Shown here one piece after another: positions 2,509 through 16,337 of a stretch of DNA of 64,000 bases (its first letter is position 1; each line of letters opens with the position of its first letter). The position numbers and the translations under genes are program-made. The notes beneath the pieces were generated by a model. It saw only the letters and a program-made list of their open reading frames with translations, had not been told where the DNA came from and did no database searches. Origin of the DNA: Cyanobacteriota bacterium. Its GTDB lineage: Bacteria; Cyanobacteriota; Cyanobacteriia; CACIAM-69d. The DNA is taken from NCBI GenBank assembly GCA_022402445.1, contig JAKRSF010000010.1, positions 310,001-374,000 on the forward strand, written 5' to 3'.

Positions 2509-2700
2509 GATGACTGGGGGATTGGGGTTGCGCCGCTGGGTTCGCCCGGACGGCATGGCACCTCAATCCCGCGCTGGGGTCTTCGGCGATGCCTCCTGAT
2601 GGGCGGCTAGTCCGAGACCCTGCGGCCACCGCACGGTTTGCTCGCCTCTGGAGTGGTGCCCTGGAGGTGGGGCGGGTGGCAAGTCCCTAAGCTTTTTCAT

Positions 2701-2922
2701 GTGAGTTTGATTGGCGGGTCGCTTTGGCGGCTCGCTTTTTTGTGGGGATTGCGCGGCGGCGGGGAATCTGGCGGCGCAGCGGATATCCTTGGAGCGCTCT
2801 TTGGCCTATCGGGCACCGTCACCGCTGGAGGGTTTAAGGTGGCCTATACTGCCCTGACCAAAAGCCGCCGCAAGCGCAACGAACTGCCCGCTGATTACGA
2901 AAATCCCTTTGGTTTGTTCTAG
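2701..2922 (+). CDS. Small hypothetical protein (uncertain)
   Basis: The frame is open from a GTG at 2701 to 2922 (73 residues) and ends in a protein-like sequence, KSRRKRNELPADYENPFGLF, preceded by a Gly/Ala-rich stretch. I do not recognise the family. Against the call, the first codons run through the rho-independent terminator at 2714-2741, so any real gene must start later, probably at a non-ATG codon, and I see no clear ribosome-binding site. Only the last 45 or so residues look credible. Confidence 0.3.
   Translation: MSLIGGSLWRLAFLWGLRGGGESGGAADILGALFGLSGTVTAGGFKVAYTALTKSRRKRNELPADYENPFGLF
2714..2741 (+). terminator. Rho-independent terminator
   Basis: A 9-bp stem, GCGGGTCGC/GCGGCTCGC with two G-U pairs, encloses the loop TTTG and runs directly into six Ts. 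It lies about 205 bases after the PEP-CTERM stop codon. It ends either that transcript, with a long 3' UTR, or a separate short RNA encoded at 2509-2741. Confidence 0.75.
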
Positions 2923-3073
2923 GAGTCGCGCCCCGACAATTCCCCCGATCGCGGCGATCGCCACGGAAATTGGGCAGATTGAGCGCCTAAAATGACACCA
3001 TACTGTTGAAGCCATCGGTGCAACTGCCCTGTGGGCTGATGGCCGCCGCCGCCCCCTCCCCCTCCCAGACCCC

Positions 3074-5053
3074 ATGGTCGCCCCCGATCCATCCCCTGCA
3101 TCTCCGCCCATCCGGCGACGCCAGGGCCTTTTGCTTGGCATTGTGATTGCAGGCGGCATTGCCATGTTGCTGGCGTTGCTGTTTGCGATCGCTACCTTCT
3201 TCCTATTCCAGGGGCTCAATGACCTGGAAGCCTCGATCATCCGGCAAGATACCCGCCGCGCCCTCGACGCGATCGCGGCGGAACGGAACCAAGTGCGGGC
3301 CAATGTGTGCGACTACGCCCGCTGGGATTCGCCCTATGACTACATGGTCAATGGACGACCGGGCAGCGGCAACCATGAATTTGAACGCAGCAGCCTCGTC
3401 CTCGCCACCCAGAAAAACCTGGACCTCAACGTCCTCGCCGTCCTCACCCCCAACGGCACCTACTATTACGGCCAGCAGCGCACCGCCACGGGCGATCGCC
3501 TCGAACCCCTGGCCCCTAGCCTAGAGCGCTACCTCACCGCATGGCCCCAGCGCCAGCAACCCCTACGGCCCGACAGCGAAGCCGCCGGTTGGCTCCAGAC
3601 CGAACGCGGCCCCATGCTCCTTGGCCTCTGCGCCATCACCACCCGCAATGTCGATGCACCCCCGCGCGGTGTCCTCGTGATGGGCCGATATGTGAACCAA
3701 GCCCGCCTCGCCGCCATTGAACGGCAACTGCGTGTTTCCGTCTCCCTGATTCCCCTCAATCCCGCCCAGGCGTTGCCCCCCGCCGTCCAGGTCATCCGCG
3801 ATCGCCTGCGCAGCCAGCCCAGCTATGGCAACTCCGCCATCCCCGATCGCGCGATCATCATCATCCCCGACGGGAGCGATCGCCTCACCAGCTACATCCG
3901 CCAGGATGACCTCAACGGCAACCCCCTCGCCCTGATCCAAGTCGCCACCGGGCGATCGCTCCACCGGGAAGGCATCCTCGCCAGCCGCACCTTCGGCTGG
4001 GTGTTGCTCATGGCCGGGAGCCTGTTTGGGGGCGTCAGTTGGTGGCTATTGCAGCGGTTCTGGGCCGAGAGCGAACGGCGCGCCCGCACCGAAGAAGCCC
4101 TCGCCCGCGAAAGCGCCCTGCGGGAAACCAATGCGCGCTACCGGGAAAAGGCCATTGAACTCGAACAGGCCCTCGATGACCTGCGCCAGACCCAGGGGCA
4201 GCTCATCCACACGGAAAAAATGTCCGCCCTCGGGCGACTGGTGGCCGGGGTGGCCCATGAAATCAATAACCCCGCCTCCTTCATCATGGGGAATCTCGCC
4301 TACCTCCAAGAGTCCTGGCTCCAGGCGATCGCCTACCTCCAGCGGGCCGCCGCTGAATCTCCCCCCTTTGCGGAAACCCTGCGGCATTGGGACGACGAGC
4401 TAGGCTTCGAGGACGCGATCGCCGAGGTCGAAGAAGCTTTTCAGTCTGCCCAGAACGGCACCAACCGCATCCGCAACATCGTCCTGTCCCTGCGCACCTT
4501 CGCCCACCTCGATCGCGAGCCGCGCCAGTCCGTCCCCCTCGACCAGGGGCTCGACAGCGCCCTCGACCTCCTCCAGCACCGCACCAGTGTCCAGGGCGAT
4601 CGCCCCGCCGTGCGCATCGTCCGCCACTACGACCCCATCCCCCCCGTCCCCTGCAACGTGCGGGACATTCACCAGGTCTTTGCCCACCTGCTCGAAAACG
4701 CCCTTGATGCCTTTGATCGCGCCCCTTGGGACGGCCCCCCCGACGGCGGCAGCTCCCACCCCACCCTCACCCTGCGGCTCCAGCAACGGGAGGATCACGC
4801 CCTCATCGCGATCGCCAACAACGGCCCCCCCATCCCCCCCCACCTGATCCCCAAACTGTTCGACCCCTTCTTCACCACCAAACCCGTCGGCCAGGGCACC
4901 GGCCTCGGCCTCTTCAGCAGCCACCAGATCGTGCGGCAACATGGGGGCACCCTCACGGTCACCTCCGTGGCCCACTGCACTGAATTCACGATCGCCCTAC
5001 CCCTGCAAGCTGCCGTCACCCGCCCACAAAAAACGGCTGCCATAGGCCCCTAG
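3074..5053 (+). CDS. Membrane-bound sensor histidine kinase
   Basis: This 659-residue orphan sensor kinase has a transmembrane segment at about 18-47. A periplasmic domain of about 255 residues follows, with the CHASE4-like opening (CDYARWDSPYDYM). A second transmembrane segment at about 306-325 leads into a coiled-coil linker. The phospho-acceptor His395 lies in the H-box (VAGVAHEINNPASF). The ATPase domain shows the N-box Asn at about 540 (LLENALDAF), the G1 box (IANNGPP), the F-box (FDPFFTTK) and the G2 box (GTGLGL, about 608). All key residues are present. No response regulator is adjacent, so its partner and signal are unknown. The GVAHEINNP H-box and compact G2 resemble ATP-binding HisKA proteins with multi-target cyanobacterial phosphorelays. 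The start is the first ATG before the Pro-rich N-terminus. Confidence 0.9.
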   Translation: MVAPDPSPASPPIRRRQGLLLGIVIAGGIAMLLALLFAIATFFLFQGLNDLEASIIRQDTRRALDAIAAERNQVRANVCDYARWDSPYDYMVNGRPGSGNHEFERSSLVLATQKNLDLNVLAVLTPNGTYYYGQQRTATGDRLEPLAPSLERYLTAWPQRQQPLRPDSEAAGWLQTERGPMLLGLCAITTRNVDAPPRGVLVMGRYVNQARLAAIERQLRVSVSLIPLNPAQALPPAVQVIRDRLRSQPSYGNSAIPDRAIIIIPDGSDRLTSYIRQDDLNGNPLALIQVATGRSLHREGILASRTFGWVLLMAGSLFGGVSWWLLQRFWAESERRARTEEALARESALRETNARYREKAIELEQALDDLRQTQGQLIHTEKMSALGRLVAGVAHEINNPASFIMGNLAYLQESWLQAIAYLQRAAAESPPFAETLRHWDDELGFEDAIAEVEEAFQSAQNGTNRIRNIVLSLRTFAHLDREPRQSVPLDQGLDSALDLLQHRTSVQGDRPAVRIVRHYDPIPPVPCNVRDIHQVFAHLLENALDAFDRAPWDGPPDGGSSHPTLTLRLQQREDHALIAIANNGPPIPPHLIPKLFDPFFTTKPVGQGTGLGLFSSHQIVRQHGGTLTVTSVAHCTEFTIALPLQAAVTRPQKTAAIGP

Positions 5054-6659: not shown

Positions 6660-6739
6660 CCCGAGCCTCGCACCGACCGCCCCCGCGATCGCGCGCCGAC
6701 CGGGGGGTATGCCCAAAACCAACCAACGCCTTACCCCAC

Positions 6740-8395
6740 CTAGGCCACGGGTTTCACCAACGCCCCGCTGCTGCTGCCCATGCCCGCCCGCGCCGCGATC
6801 GGAGCCGACAGGGCCGCCTCCAGGGGCGATCGCCCCACCCGCCGTTCCAGAATCCGCATCACCTCGCGGCCAAAATCATTCGGATTCGTGCGCCACGCCT
6901 CCAGGCAAACGGACCCAAAAAATGACCCCATCGGCTCCGGATTCCACAGCAACTTCCGGGCCGTCCAGGGCATCAAACTCATGGGATTGTAGCCCCGCTT
7001 CAGGATCTGCCGCTCCAGGGCATAGTCCTCTAGGTGGGTGTGGGGCTGGAGGCCAATGAAGAAGATGGCAGGCTCCACCTTATCCTCCCCAAAAATTGCC
7101 TCTAATTCCCGGTGATAGGCGATCGTTTGACGGATCGTTTCCTCCGTTTCATCAATCACATTGAAGGAATAATTGACGGACACCACATCGTCAAACCCCG
7201 CCGCCCGCAAATCCCGGCAGTTTTGCAGCACCGTCCGCAGGTTATAGCCCATCCGCATCTTGCGCACCAGCTCCTGGGAGCCGCTGGTGATGCCGATTTC
7301 AAAATAATTCATGCCCGTCTGCACCATCAGATCGCACAGTTCCGGGTCCAGATTATCGGCGCGAATATAGGCCGCCCAATGGATATCCCCCATGCCCGCC
7401 GCCACGATCGCCCGCAGCAGGTCCTTCGCATCTTCAATGAAGCGTTTTGCCGGAATAAATTGGGCATCGGTGAACCAAAAATTCCGCACCCCCAACTGAT
7501 AAAGCTGGCGTATTTCCGCCACCACCTCCTCAGCGGGATTAATGCGCACCTGCTTCCCTTCAATGACCGTATAAACGCAGTAGCAGCAGTTGTGGGGGCA
7601 GCCGCGCTTGGTCTGTACGCCGATATAAAAATCGCGATCGCGGAAATAGTAATCAAACGCCGGCCAAATTTGTTGGATATAGCCGTAATCACAGGCCGTC
7701 TTCTCGATCGGCGCGGGCGGCTCGTGGATCAACCCCGATCGCGGAACCTCCTGACCCACCACATAGCAGCGCTCCTGGGCCAAATCCTCCCCGCGCAGGA
7801 GCTTTTCCAGCAGGGCCTCCCCCTCCCCCACGGACACGATCGTCCCCTTGGGCAGCGACCCGGCCAACTGCTCATAGAACACACTCACGGCCCCGCCCCC
7901 CACCACCGCCCGCGCCTGGGGAGCGTAGCGCCGCGCCCGCCGCAGGCCCCGCTTAATCAAGCCCTCATTGCGCCACAGCTCCGTGTAGTAGGCCAGCAGC
8001 ACCCGCAACCCGCCGATCGCCCCGCGCAATTTAATGAACGGATTTTTGGCGTAATAGACCTCGAAGGCATTCTGGAGCGGATTGCCCCCGCGCCCGCCCA
8101 CCGGCGCATAGATCTGAATATCGCGCCAGGAAAACACCAGCAGCGTGGGCCGAAAGGCATCAATCTCCGCATCCAGCGCCCGCCGAAAATCCAGCGGCGG
8201 CACCGTCCCCAGGTCAAAAATCCGCTGCTCCACCGTCGGAAACTGCTTGTGGATATGGTCCGACAGGTACACCACCCCAATCGGAAAGATCGGATTGCAC
8301 GGCAGCCGCACATAAAGGATGCGTTCCAGGGCGGTGCGATCAGAACGCACCCCAGGGGCGGCGGGGGAACTCGGGTCAAGGGTCCGGTTTGCCAT
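6740..8395 (-). CDS. B12-binding-type radical SAM protein, PSII high-light-acclimation family
   Basis: This 551-residue protein has an N-terminal cobalamin-binding-like Rossmann region (about 30-240, with VVGGGAVSVFYE). The radical SAM core follows, with Cys266, Cys270 and Cys273 (RGCPHNCCYC) as ligands of the 4Fe-4S cluster. Downstream barrel motifs include YIRADNLDPELCDLM and GITSGSQELVRKMRMGY. The whole architecture matches the cyanobacterial family annotated as photosystem II high light acclimation radical SAM protein; that name is from memory, and the chemical reaction of the family is not established. The start at 8395 (MANRTLDP) is preferred over an upstream TTG because AGGA lies 8 bases ahead of it. 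It is convergent with the small gene at 6459. Confidence 0.85.
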   Translation of the reverse strand: MANRTLDPSSPAAPGVRSDRTALERILYVRLPCNPIFPIGVVYLSDHIHKQFPTVEQRIFDLGTVPPLDFRRALDAEIDAFRPTLLVFSWRDIQIYAPVGGRGGNPLQNAFEVYYAKNPFIKLRGAIGGLRVLLAYYTELWRNEGLIKRGLRRARRYAPQARAVVGGGAVSVFYEQLAGSLPKGTIVSVGEGEALLEKLLRGEDLAQERCYVVGQEVPRSGLIHEPPAPIEKTACDYGYIQQIWPAFDYYFRDRDFYIGVQTKRGCPHNCCYCVYTVIEGKQVRINPAEEVVAEIRQLYQLGVRNFWFTDAQFIPAKRFIEDAKDLLRAIVAAGMGDIHWAAYIRADNLDPELCDLMVQTGMNYFEIGITSGSQELVRKMRMGYNLRTVLQNCRDLRAAGFDDVVSVNYSFNVIDETEETIRQTIAYHRELEAIFGEDKVEPAIFFIGLQPHTHLEDYALERQILKRGYNPMSLMPWTARKLLWNPEPMGSFFGSVCLEAWRTNPNDFGREVMRILERRVGRSPLEAALSAPIAARAGMGSSSGALVKPVA

Positions 8396-8910
8396 GGGAA
8401 ATCCTGCGGCGATCTGCAAACTAGGCGGGGCAACGCACGATGCCAGGATCCGGGGCGGGGGAATTCTGATATCGCGTCATATATCTTTACAGATCTTAGG
8501 ATACCATCGATTCCGGTGGGGCTGCGATCGCGGCGGATCCGCCCTCTCGGTTGCGGGGCCTAGGTTTGGGGAAGATGCCCCTGGGCCAAAGCACGGTTCC
8601 ATGGCTGCCCTGGGACTCCCCCGAGGGCCGTGGCCCATCCCCTCCCAGGTTCACCGGCGCGCAGGTCAGAACTTCAGCGTCCGATGGCGCGATCGTTGTC
8701 TTTCTTTGGCCCTTGAGAACTCAGGCTTAGCTACCGCAAATCCGGGCGGAATGTTGCGATCTATCGACGGTTCCTCGCCCATTTTTTAGGGCCATGGTTT
8801 CAAGGTCCGCCACACCCCGAGGCGATCGGTAATCGCGTTTACAGCCGATCTGGATTTATCAGTGTTACGGTGGGATCACATCGCCCAATATATGACGCTC
8901 CTCTTAACAT
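8396..8910. other. Divergent intergenic region upstream of radical SAM gene and DUF1830
   Basis: These 515 bases separate two divergent genes. AT-rich pockets at 8470-8505 and 8870-8910 are likely promoter zones for the minus- and plus-strand genes respectively. I see no RNA gene, repeat or supported small gene here. Confidence 0.5.
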
Positions 8911-14601: not shown

Positions 14602-15663
14602 CTAGCGACCATCCCGGAGGGGCGGCGGCAACGTTGCTTCCGTATTCAGGGCCGTGGCGATCGCCCCCAACAGCCGCGCCTCCAGGCGATCGGTCCCCAC
14701 TACCACGGACGATGCGCCGCCCGCCAGCATGGCATTAAATCCCCCCGCGTCACCGCTGAGGCGAAAATCCGTCCGCACCGCCACCACGGGAATCCCGGCC
14801 CCATAGCCGTAGCCACATTCCCAGCAGGTGCCCGAGTCCGCATCGGCCCCGTCGAGGATTGCCACGATCGCGGCGGATTCCTTGAGACCACTGAGGCAGC
14901 AGCGGAAAATCGCCCCCCGATCCTTGAGGGTGGCGGCCTCATCCTGGGGCAAAAAGACCTGGTAGCCGCGATCGCGCAGCATACTCGCCACCTTGGCATT
15001 AAAGGCCCGTTCGGCGGCGGAAAACAGCGGCGCAGCCACATAGAGCTTCTGGGTTGCCGTGGGGGAAGGGGGTTCGCGATCGAGCAGCGACAGGCCCGTG
15101 TGGTAGGCACGCTCGAAGCGATCGCCCAGGGGACCATTCACCGGCCCGAGGGCATCCACCACCGCCTTGGCCCAGTCGAGGTACTGCCGCCGCCGCTCCA
15201 CGGGCCAGGTGGTGGGCGGCGCGTGGGTCACATCTTCGATATTGCAAATCTTGTCCGCGAGTTTCACCAGCTTGGCGCGATCGCTCAGGTTCGCCGCCCG
15301 TTCGATCTGGATTTGCTTGCGCTTGAGCTTGGGGAAATTTTTGTTATCGGTCACCTCCGCCACCACGGCGGCCACCTCGACGCCGAAGCGATTGACGAGA
15401 TCCGTGGCGGTGGTGGGGGTATCTTCCACCGTGTCGTGGAGCAGGGCCGCCGCTAGGGTAATCGAGTCGCGCACGCCGCCCACGGTCCAGAGCAGGTGCA
15501 GCAGGGCGATGGGGTGGTTGATGTAGGGGGCATGGTCGGCCCCCTTGCGCCGCTGATCCCGGTGTTGCCGCGCCGCAAACTCCAGCGCCGCGATCGTCAG
15601 GCCAAAGTCCAGCGGTCCCGCCGCACCCCGGCCCGGATCCGCCTGAACACCCTGCTTTGCCAT
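14602..15663 (-). CDS. HD-domain (SpoT/MESH1-like) hydrolase fused to nucleoside 2-deoxyribosyltransferase-like domain
   Basis: This 353-residue two-domain protein begins with an HD domain (about 20-200). It carries the metal and substrate residues of the (p)ppGpp hydrolase class: His34 in QHRDQRRKG, HP at 50-51, His76-Asp77 (LLHDTVED, with Glu80/Asp81), and LADKICNI with Asp137 and Asn141. Residues 206-345 form a nucleoside 2-deoxyribosyltransferase-type Rossmann domain. It starts LYVAAPLFSAAERAFN and carries the catalytic signature D-x4-D-x5-E (Asp271, Asp276, Glu282 in GADADSGTCWECG). Glu282 would be the nucleophile. No synthetase domain is present. The fusion suggests hydrolysis or salvage of a nucleotide, possibly an alarmone or a modified deoxynucleotide, by two coupled steps; that is inference. 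It is 2 bases from the HAD gene upstream. Confidence 0.88.
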   Translation of the reverse strand: MAKQGVQADPGRGAAGPLDFGLTIAALEFAARQHRDQRRKGADHAPYINHPIALLHLLWTVGGVRDSITLAAALLHDTVEDTPTTATDLVNRFGVEVAAVVAEVTDNKNFPKLKRKQIQIERAANLSDRAKLVKLADKICNIEDVTHAPPTTWPVERRRQYLDWAKAVVDALGPVNGPLGDRFERAYHTGLSLLDREPPSPTATQKLYVAAPLFSAAERAFNAKVASMLRDRGYQVFLPQDEAATLKDRGAIFRCCLSGLKESAAIVAILDGADADSGTCWECGYGYGAGIPVVAVRTDFRLSGDAGGFNAMLAGGASSVVVGTDRLEARLLGAIATALNTEATLPPPLRDGR

Positions 15664-15665
15664 CC

Positions 15666-16337
15666 CTATGCCTCCCGTTCATCCAGTCGCCGCCAGAGGG
15701 CCGGATCATGAAAATCCGCGATCGCCAGTGTTGCCCCCGCTCCATACAATTGTGCCGCTGGATGGCTGGTGGTGAGGGCGATCGTTTCAATTCCTGCCGC
15801 CACGGCGGAGCGGATCCCGGCGGGGGAGTCTTCAAAGGCGATCGCCTGTTCCGCCGCCACATTCACCCGCTCCAGGGCGATGCGATAGGGGGCTGGATCC
15901 GGTTTGCCCGCCGGACAGTCCTCCGCCAAAATGACTGGCCCTAGGGATTGGAAAGCGCGATCGCCGGCCCCCACCACCGACAGCACCAGTTCCGCATTGG
16001 CCCGTGGGGCATTGGTCACCACCGCCGATCGCCAGCCGCGATCGCCCAGCCGCTGCCACAGCCGATCAAATCCCGCCAACGGTGCCAAGGTTTCCCGCGC
16101 CCAGTCGCGGTAGCACTGTTCCTTGTGATCGCTCAGGGCGGCCCCTTCGGCAACGGATAGCTGGGGCAACAGGTCCGCCACGATTTCTGCATTGGTGCGG
16201 CCACTGATCTGGCGATCGTAGGTGGGCTGATCTAGATCAATGCCAAACTCCGTCAGGATTTGTTTCCAGGCGCGGTAGTGGACCGGATTGCTATCCACCA
16301 GCGTGCCATCGAGATCAAACAACAGGGCGCTCAGCAT
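15666..16337 (-). CDS. HAD-IA phosphatase (beta-phosphoglucomutase/phosphatase-like)
   Basis: This 223-residue protein contains all HAD motifs with standard residues: FDLDGTLVDSN (Asp nucleophile and Asp acid/base), VTNAP (motif II), Lys in CPAGKPDPAPY, and FEDSPAGIRSA (motif IV). A helical cap between motifs I and II gives the subclass IA fold. Such enzymes dephosphorylate small sugar phosphates or nucleotides. The neighbouring HD-NDT gene, 2 bases downstream, makes a nucleotide or deoxyribose phosphate plausible, but the sequence alone does not decide. The ATG at 16337 gives the family N-terminus MLSALLFDLDG. A longer reading would run into a repeat element at 16411-16440. Confidence 0.88.
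   Translation of the reverse strand: MLSALLFDLDGTLVDSNPVHYRAWKQILTEFGIDLDQPTYDRQISGRTNAEIVADLLPQLSVAEGAALSDHKEQCYRDWARETLAPLAGFDRLWQRLGDRGWRSAVVTNAPRANAELVLSVVGAGDRAFQSLGPVILAEDCPAGKPDPAPYRIALERVNVAAEQAIAFEDSPAGIRSAVAAGIETIALTTSHPAAQLYGAGATLAIADFHDPALWRRLDEREA

Follow-up and report, generated by a model that had tools for sequence, protein, structure and literature searches.

A Single Reading Frame Joins an HD Hydrolase to an NDT Domain

The window, by which we mean the whole stretch of 64,000 nucleotides analysed here, carries on its minus strand a gene that encodes an HD hydrolase domain followed by a domain of the nucleoside 2-deoxyribosyltransferase (NDT) superfamily. The gene, its parts and its neighbours are as follows.

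15666..16337, minus strand: HAD-superfamily hydrolase (beta-PGM/HAD_2 type), directly upstream (Pfam HAD_2, E = 5.9e-27; NCBIfam)
15671..15676, minus strand: GGGAGG, lying in the tail of the HAD gene and probably serving as ribosome-binding site for the fusion gene (read directly)
14602..15663, minus strand: HD-NDT fusion gene, ATG at 15663, stop codon at 14602-14604, 353 aa
15094..15606, minus strand: Mesh1-like (small alarmone hydrolase) HD domain, residues ~20-190 (Pfam HD_4, MESH1 matches, Foldseek, conservation in 48 homologues)
15049..15093, minus strand: interdomain linker, residues 191-205, sequence not conserved
14689..15048, minus strand: NDT-superfamily domain, residues 206-325 (PF05014, 7o62 at TM 0.84, alignments)
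14896..14898, minus strand: codon of Cys256, which takes the place of the Asp/Asn in the NDT catalytic triad (Cys in 26/29 and Asp in 3/29 aligned homologues)
14818..14820, minus strand: codon of Glu282, the predicted covalent nucleophile (Glu in 28/29; aligned to CtNDT E88, PMC10913048)
13722..14612, minus strand: biotin-[acetyl-CoA-carboxylase] ligase (BirA), downstream, overlapping the fusion stop (TIGR00121, over cut-off)

The fusion gene is one open reading frame with no internal stop, read from 15663 to 14602. In its product, Pfam finds an HD_4 domain at residues 26-153 (E = 3.7e-19, far over the cut-off) and a Nuc_deoxyrib_tr domain, PF05014, at residues 207-302 (E = 4.1e-20; 72.5 bits against a cut-off of 28.8), and nothing else; there is no synthetase domain. 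An AlphaFold model, computed as a monomer from 29 aligned sequences, has a mean pLDDT of 85.2 and a pTM of 0.68. Pfam, PDB matches and the model are concordant, and the fusion is real. An earlier note, made from this DNA alone, had proposed an HD-NDT fusion here, to which we add that it lies on the minus strand. The presence of the same two-domain frame in three other genomes rules out an error of sequencing or assembly.

Both families are known, and the conserved architecture that unites them is apparently undescribed. We know of no description of an HD-NDT fusion from the open-licence literature, and a description that we have not seen is possible. The earlier note's views that the protein belongs to nucleotide metabolism and that no such enzyme has been described both hold up. 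The BirA gene is outside the fusion system.

The HD Half Is of the Mesh1 Type

By sequence, human and fly MESH1 come nearest to the HD half (phmmer, E = 2e-43 and 3e-38), far ahead of Rel and SpoT chains, and the MESH1 structures that it matches are 3nr1 and 5vxa (E = 2e-43). The model superposes on these with a TM score of 0.91 by target, and identity to human MESH1 in the Foldseek alignment is 44%. The metal ligands H50, H76, D77 and D137 are kept, corresponding to H35, H61, D62 and D122 of MESH1, as is the catalytic pair E80/D81; N141 and Y161 are also conserved among 48 homologues. The residues that the earlier note had listed as catalytic were thus largely correct (H76, D77, E80, D81, D137 and N141). 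The exception is H34, which is conserved yet is not a metal ligand, as H35 of MESH1 aligns with H50.

Judged by sequence and model, the HD half is of the Mesh1/Mesh1-L small alarmone hydrolase type, a narrower assignment than the SpoT/MESH1 class first given to it, and hydrolysis itself is predicted. It has the fold and all metal and catalytic residues in common with human MESH1 and with XccSAH, a bacterial Mesh1-L that hydrolyses pppApp, pppGpp, ppGpp and pGpp and, weakly, NADPH (PMC9765508). Mesh1-L is usual in cyanobacteria as a small, HD-only protein, in a survey from which the word ‘fusion’ is absent (PMC3153485). Whereas known Mesh1 and Mesh1-L proteins are small and single-domain, the fusion adds a C-terminal NDT-superfamily domain, and it has two unusual residues in the HD codons (15205-15588 of the window). 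Position 107 is Asn where 45 of 48 HD homologues have Asp, and position 143 is Glu where 36 of 48 have Arg. N107 and E143 could shift the substrate of the HD half.

The NDT Half Keeps All but One of the Functional Positions

The NDT half matches solved NDTs by sequence in a PDB profile search, and the model aligns with 7o62, the NDT of Desulfotalea psychrophila, at a TM score of up to 0.84. Structure prediction, which the earlier note had named as a check on the C-terminal domain, therefore finds the NDT fold present, a result that speaks for the fold only and comes from a monomer model.

Aligning the NDT half to CtNDT, the enzyme of Chroococcidiopsis thermalis, pairs Y208 with Y7, C256 with D62, D276 with D82, E282 with E88, D305 with D111, N310 with N118 and M312 with M120. 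Six of these seven functional positions are kept, and the exception is the third member of the triad, Cys256. In CtNDT, E88 is the nucleophile and Y7 its partner, D82 and N118 lie near the 5'-OH and D111 acts on the leaving base (PMC10913048). The position of E282 is Glu in 28 of 29 aligned NDT homologues, and D276 and N310 are invariant in the 29-row alignment. The earlier assignment of E282 fits the nucleophile position and that of D276 fits the 5'-OH aspartate; D271, also put forward, is a turn residue, and the triad position missing from that list is occupied by Cys256.

The fusion thus shares with CtNDT and 7o62 the fold, the Tyr, the Glu, the 5'-OH Asp/Asn pair, the Met and the D111-type acidic residue. 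Canonical NDTs have Asp (or Asn) in the triad, whereas the fusion has Cys256 and is joined to an HD hydrolase. This Cys is characteristic of a subgroup: the triad Asp position (D72 in LlNDT, D62 in CtNDT) is Cys in 26 of 29 homologues, stand-alone genes included, and Asp in the other three. Among 69 viral contigs in IMG/VR (L143-L211), which encode NDT-superfamily proteins matching the fusion NDT profile, most have Asp or Asn at this position, and a subset with DDGTAWE motifs has Cys.

In CtNDT with ribose bound, D62 is 2.6 Å away from the sugar's 2'-OH and 3.2 Å away from its 3'-OH, and the D62N mutant retains ~50% efficiency (PMC10913048); the phage enzyme DmtZ naturally has Asn at this position (PMC12884076). 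Given these two cases, Cys256 need not mean an inactive enzyme. Cys at this position could lower or change activity, and since it replaces an Asp close to both hydroxyls, the subgroup may tolerate ribonucleosides better, which is a guess.

The same substitution raises the question of whether the NDT half is catalytic at all. It might instead sense nucleosides or form oligomers and in this way control the Mesh1-like hydrolase, a role that we regard as possible but doubtful. The Cys in place of the triad Asp fits such a role, as does L028, a stand-alone NDT relative from the same family (G003) that has Val at the E282 position; without the catalytic Glu, L028 indicates that non-catalytic members may exist. 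NDTs also need to dimerise, as each active site is common to two monomers (PMC10913048). However, all four fusions retain the Glu nucleophile with its Tyr partner, Met312 and the 5' site, and purifying selection acts on the whole domain (values given below).

The 5' site bears on the substrate. In NDTs, Asp and Asn stabilise a free 5'-OH, and enzymes acting on 5'-monophosphates have uncharged residues there (PMC12884076). The N-glycosidases DNPH1/Rcl, MilB and BlsM, whose substrates are 5'-nucleotides, belong to the same superfamily and give weak profile matches to the NDT half. Unlike the 5'-nucleotide hydrolases of the DNPH1/MilB/DmtZ type, which are uncharged at the 5'-OH positions, the fusion keeps D276 and N310. 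On these residues, the NDT half should act on nucleosides and not on the 5'-phosphorylated products of the HD half.

Retron-Eco1 has an NDT-like effector. Its filaments are reported to hydrolyse NAD+ in a title that PMC12548924 cites. By analogy, the fusion might clear NADP(H), with the HD half taking the 2'-phosphate off NADPH and the NDT half cleaving NAD as the retron effector does. Both MESH1 and XccSAH dephosphorylate NADPH (PMC9765508), although the efficiency of XccSAH on NADPH is ~1000 times below that on ppGpp (PMC9765508). A PDB search with the NDT profile at E <= 10 recovers no retron-effector structure, and the locus has no match in the defence library and no mobile or defence context, which makes this scheme very unlikely.

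We reject a role in defence, at which the earlier note had hinted. PADLOC has no match to its defence models at the fusion locus, the neighbours are housekeeping genes, and no retron-type NDT match was found. Neither a Mesh1-like HD gene nor a matching HAD gene lies within 4 kb of any of the 69 viral NDT-like genes.

A Lineage-Specific Fusion under Purifying Selection

Four of 390 sampled Cyanobacteriia genomes carry the fusion: that of the window (G000) and three others (G002, G004 and G005), all of one family, relatives of Limnothrix. Each of the three further copies has both Pfam domains and is 55-56% identical to the window's fusion. The G004 copy is identical to the protein at locus L032 of Limnothrix sp. 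CACIAM 69d. The family's remaining two genomes (g2) contain a stand-alone NDT and nothing else of the pair. The fusion was not found in the other 386 Cyanobacteriia genomes, in 251 genomes of the Anaerolinea phylum, in 395 of a proteobacterial phylum, or in 72,556 plasmids and 50,697 phage records, where no single place covered 80% of it. A scan of viral contigs with the fusion's own peptides gave no match.

Two further frames were considered as fusions and rejected. In L089, a 419-aa frame from the Anaerolinea phylum, Pfam finds NDT alone, and L106, a 353-aa frame from G896, is a Mesh1-type HD alone with an over-long start.

Outside these four genomes the halves are separate. At E <= 1e-25, ~52 unfused genomes have a Mesh1-like gene and 18 have an NDT of the fusion's type; two (G011 and G014) have both, on different contigs, with 2.4 expected by chance. 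Separate HD and NDT genes are found in one genome no more often than chance predicts. Among the fetched genome regions around nine stand-alone NDT genes and nine unfused Mesh1-like genes, no shared partner was found. With no shared neighbours and chance-level co-occurrence, we reject an operon or pathway link between the unfused genes. A fusion confined to one family, with halves that are elsewhere separate and unlinked, is a lineage-specific event and reveals no older conserved operon.

HD and NDT were aligned separately; a joint alignment was discarded because NDT rows fell on HD columns. The four fusions fall on one side of a branch in both trees, with support of 78/80 for HD and 93/77 for NDT. 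The trees are compatible with a single fusion, with support that is moderate and not decisive.

Both halves are under purifying selection, and the linker drifts freely. Between G002 and G004, dN/dS is near 0.09 for both domains (HD 0.020/0.221, NDT 0.015/0.171), and between G004 and G005 it is 0.18 and 0.14 for the two domains. Linker identity is 25% between G004 and G005 and 15-29% between genera, against 55-73% for the domains.

These patterns also speak to whether two unrelated genes were simply joined by chance, with each half keeping its former work and nothing gained in function. The unlinked state and chance-level co-occurrence of the halves elsewhere are what such an event would leave, as are its confinement to one family and the unconserved linker sequence. 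Yet two genera, at only ~55% identity between their copies, have kept the fusion, and in none of the four genomes has it been split or lost, so we hold a gainless joining to be quite improbable.

The Neighbouring HAD Gene and Sequential Action

We placed the start of the HAD gene at the Met preceding LSALLFDLDGT; 2 bases separate its stop (15666) from the ATG of the fusion, in agreement with the distance first noted. HAD directly adjoins the fusion in three of the four fusion genomes (G000, G002 and G004), and G005 has no HAD ortholog at E <= 1e-20. The HAD gene and an unfused Mesh1-like gene are both present in 27 cyanobacterial genomes and adjacent in only one of them. This is G015, where contig C138 (L140) has a Mesh1-like HD gene at 2521-3030 on the minus strand and, divergent from it, a HAD gene at 3238-3861 on the plus strand, orthologous to that of the window. 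In G896 (L106), a different HAD abuts an unfused Mesh1-type gene.

The nearest described design is NDT-Dut (DmtZ-DutZ) of phage Wayne, where dATP is processed in turn by a phosphohydrolase and an NDT-superfamily enzyme (PMC12884076). As in the fusion, a nucleotide phosphohydrolase shares its chain with a member of the NDT superfamily (PMC12884076). NDT-Dut differs in having a Dut fold and an N-terminal NDT, and in being a phage protein, whereas the fusion has a Mesh1 HD and a C-terminal NDT and is chromosomal. The substrates of DmtZ are 5'-monophosphates, and the enzyme has neither the Asp nor the Asn of the 5'-OH site, both of which the NDT half of the fusion keeps (PMC12884076).

The earlier note had thought a two-step route on one substrate plausible. 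The first step, hydrolysis of an alarmone or modified nucleotide, would fall to the HD half and the second, removal or exchange of the base, to the NDT half, with HAD possibly acting between them. The HAD/HD-NDT gene pair conserved in three genomes, with its 2-base gap in the window, argues for this, as do the gene pairs of G015 and G896 and the two consecutive steps of NDT-Dut. However, the products of the HD half (GDP/GTP, ATP, NADH) would keep their 5'-phosphates, and the NDT half keeps the 5'-OH-type D276 and N310, which disfavours a direct two-step route on one molecule unless a phosphatase intervenes. HAD could in principle be that phosphatase, removing 5'-phosphates between the HD and NDT steps. 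One fusion genome has no HAD ortholog, though, and the gene pair is adjacent in a single genome of the 27 that are unfused. We consider sequential action on one substrate unlikely.

A Model for the Fusion Protein

Two intact, selected domains lie on one chain. We favour, at roughly even odds (about 50%), a model in which they have two largely independent activities, any coupling between the two is indirect and the oligomer state, too, depends on the NDT half. The protein would be a bifunctional enzyme of nucleotide metabolism, born by fusion, probably once, of two genes that are separate in other bacteria.

In this model, the HD half would be a Mn-dependent hydrolase that takes the 3'-pyrophosphate off (p)ppGpp or (p)ppApp, and perhaps also a 2'- or 3'-phosphate off NADPH- or PAPS-like molecules. 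The NDT half would act separately on nucleosides with a free 5'-OH, forming a covalent (deoxy)ribosyl-Glu282 intermediate and transferring the sugar to a different base. The NDT half should also make the fusion protein a dimer or larger, since two monomers contribute to each NDT active site. Product would not pass directly between the sites, and coupling might arise through shared pools, an intermediate phosphatase or allostery.

A more specific form of coupling, which we think rather unlikely, is that nucleosides or bases at the Cys-type NDT site control the Mesh1-like hydrolysis of a 3'-phosphorylated signal nucleotide or are themselves processed alongside it. To our knowledge, no RelA/SpoT relative couples nucleosides to alarmone hydrolysis in this way.

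Should the pairing prove functional, one protein would connect stringent-response or NADPH turnover with nucleoside salvage, and would offer a simple handle on the substrates of bacterial Mesh1-like proteins, which are still poorly assigned. As the fusion is narrow and found in one family, its broader weight is limited. The Cys-for-Asp NDT subgroup, also present as stand-alone genes in cyanobacteria and other bacteria, poses a question of its own: are its members transferases, ribonucleoside enzymes or sensors?

Two other arrangements of Mesh1-like genes were seen in the cyanobacterial genomes. In G022, a genome 88% complete and the only one with this arrangement, a Mesh1-like HD and two SIS domains (GlmS isomerase-like) form one in-frame fusion of 573 aa (L017:221-1939, minus strand). 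In G011 (L058), a Mesh1-like gene (6699-7244, minus strand) starts directly after an ABC transporter gene (7245-8720, minus strand) that encodes two ATPase domains and, judged by eye, is of the sugar/nucleoside importer type.
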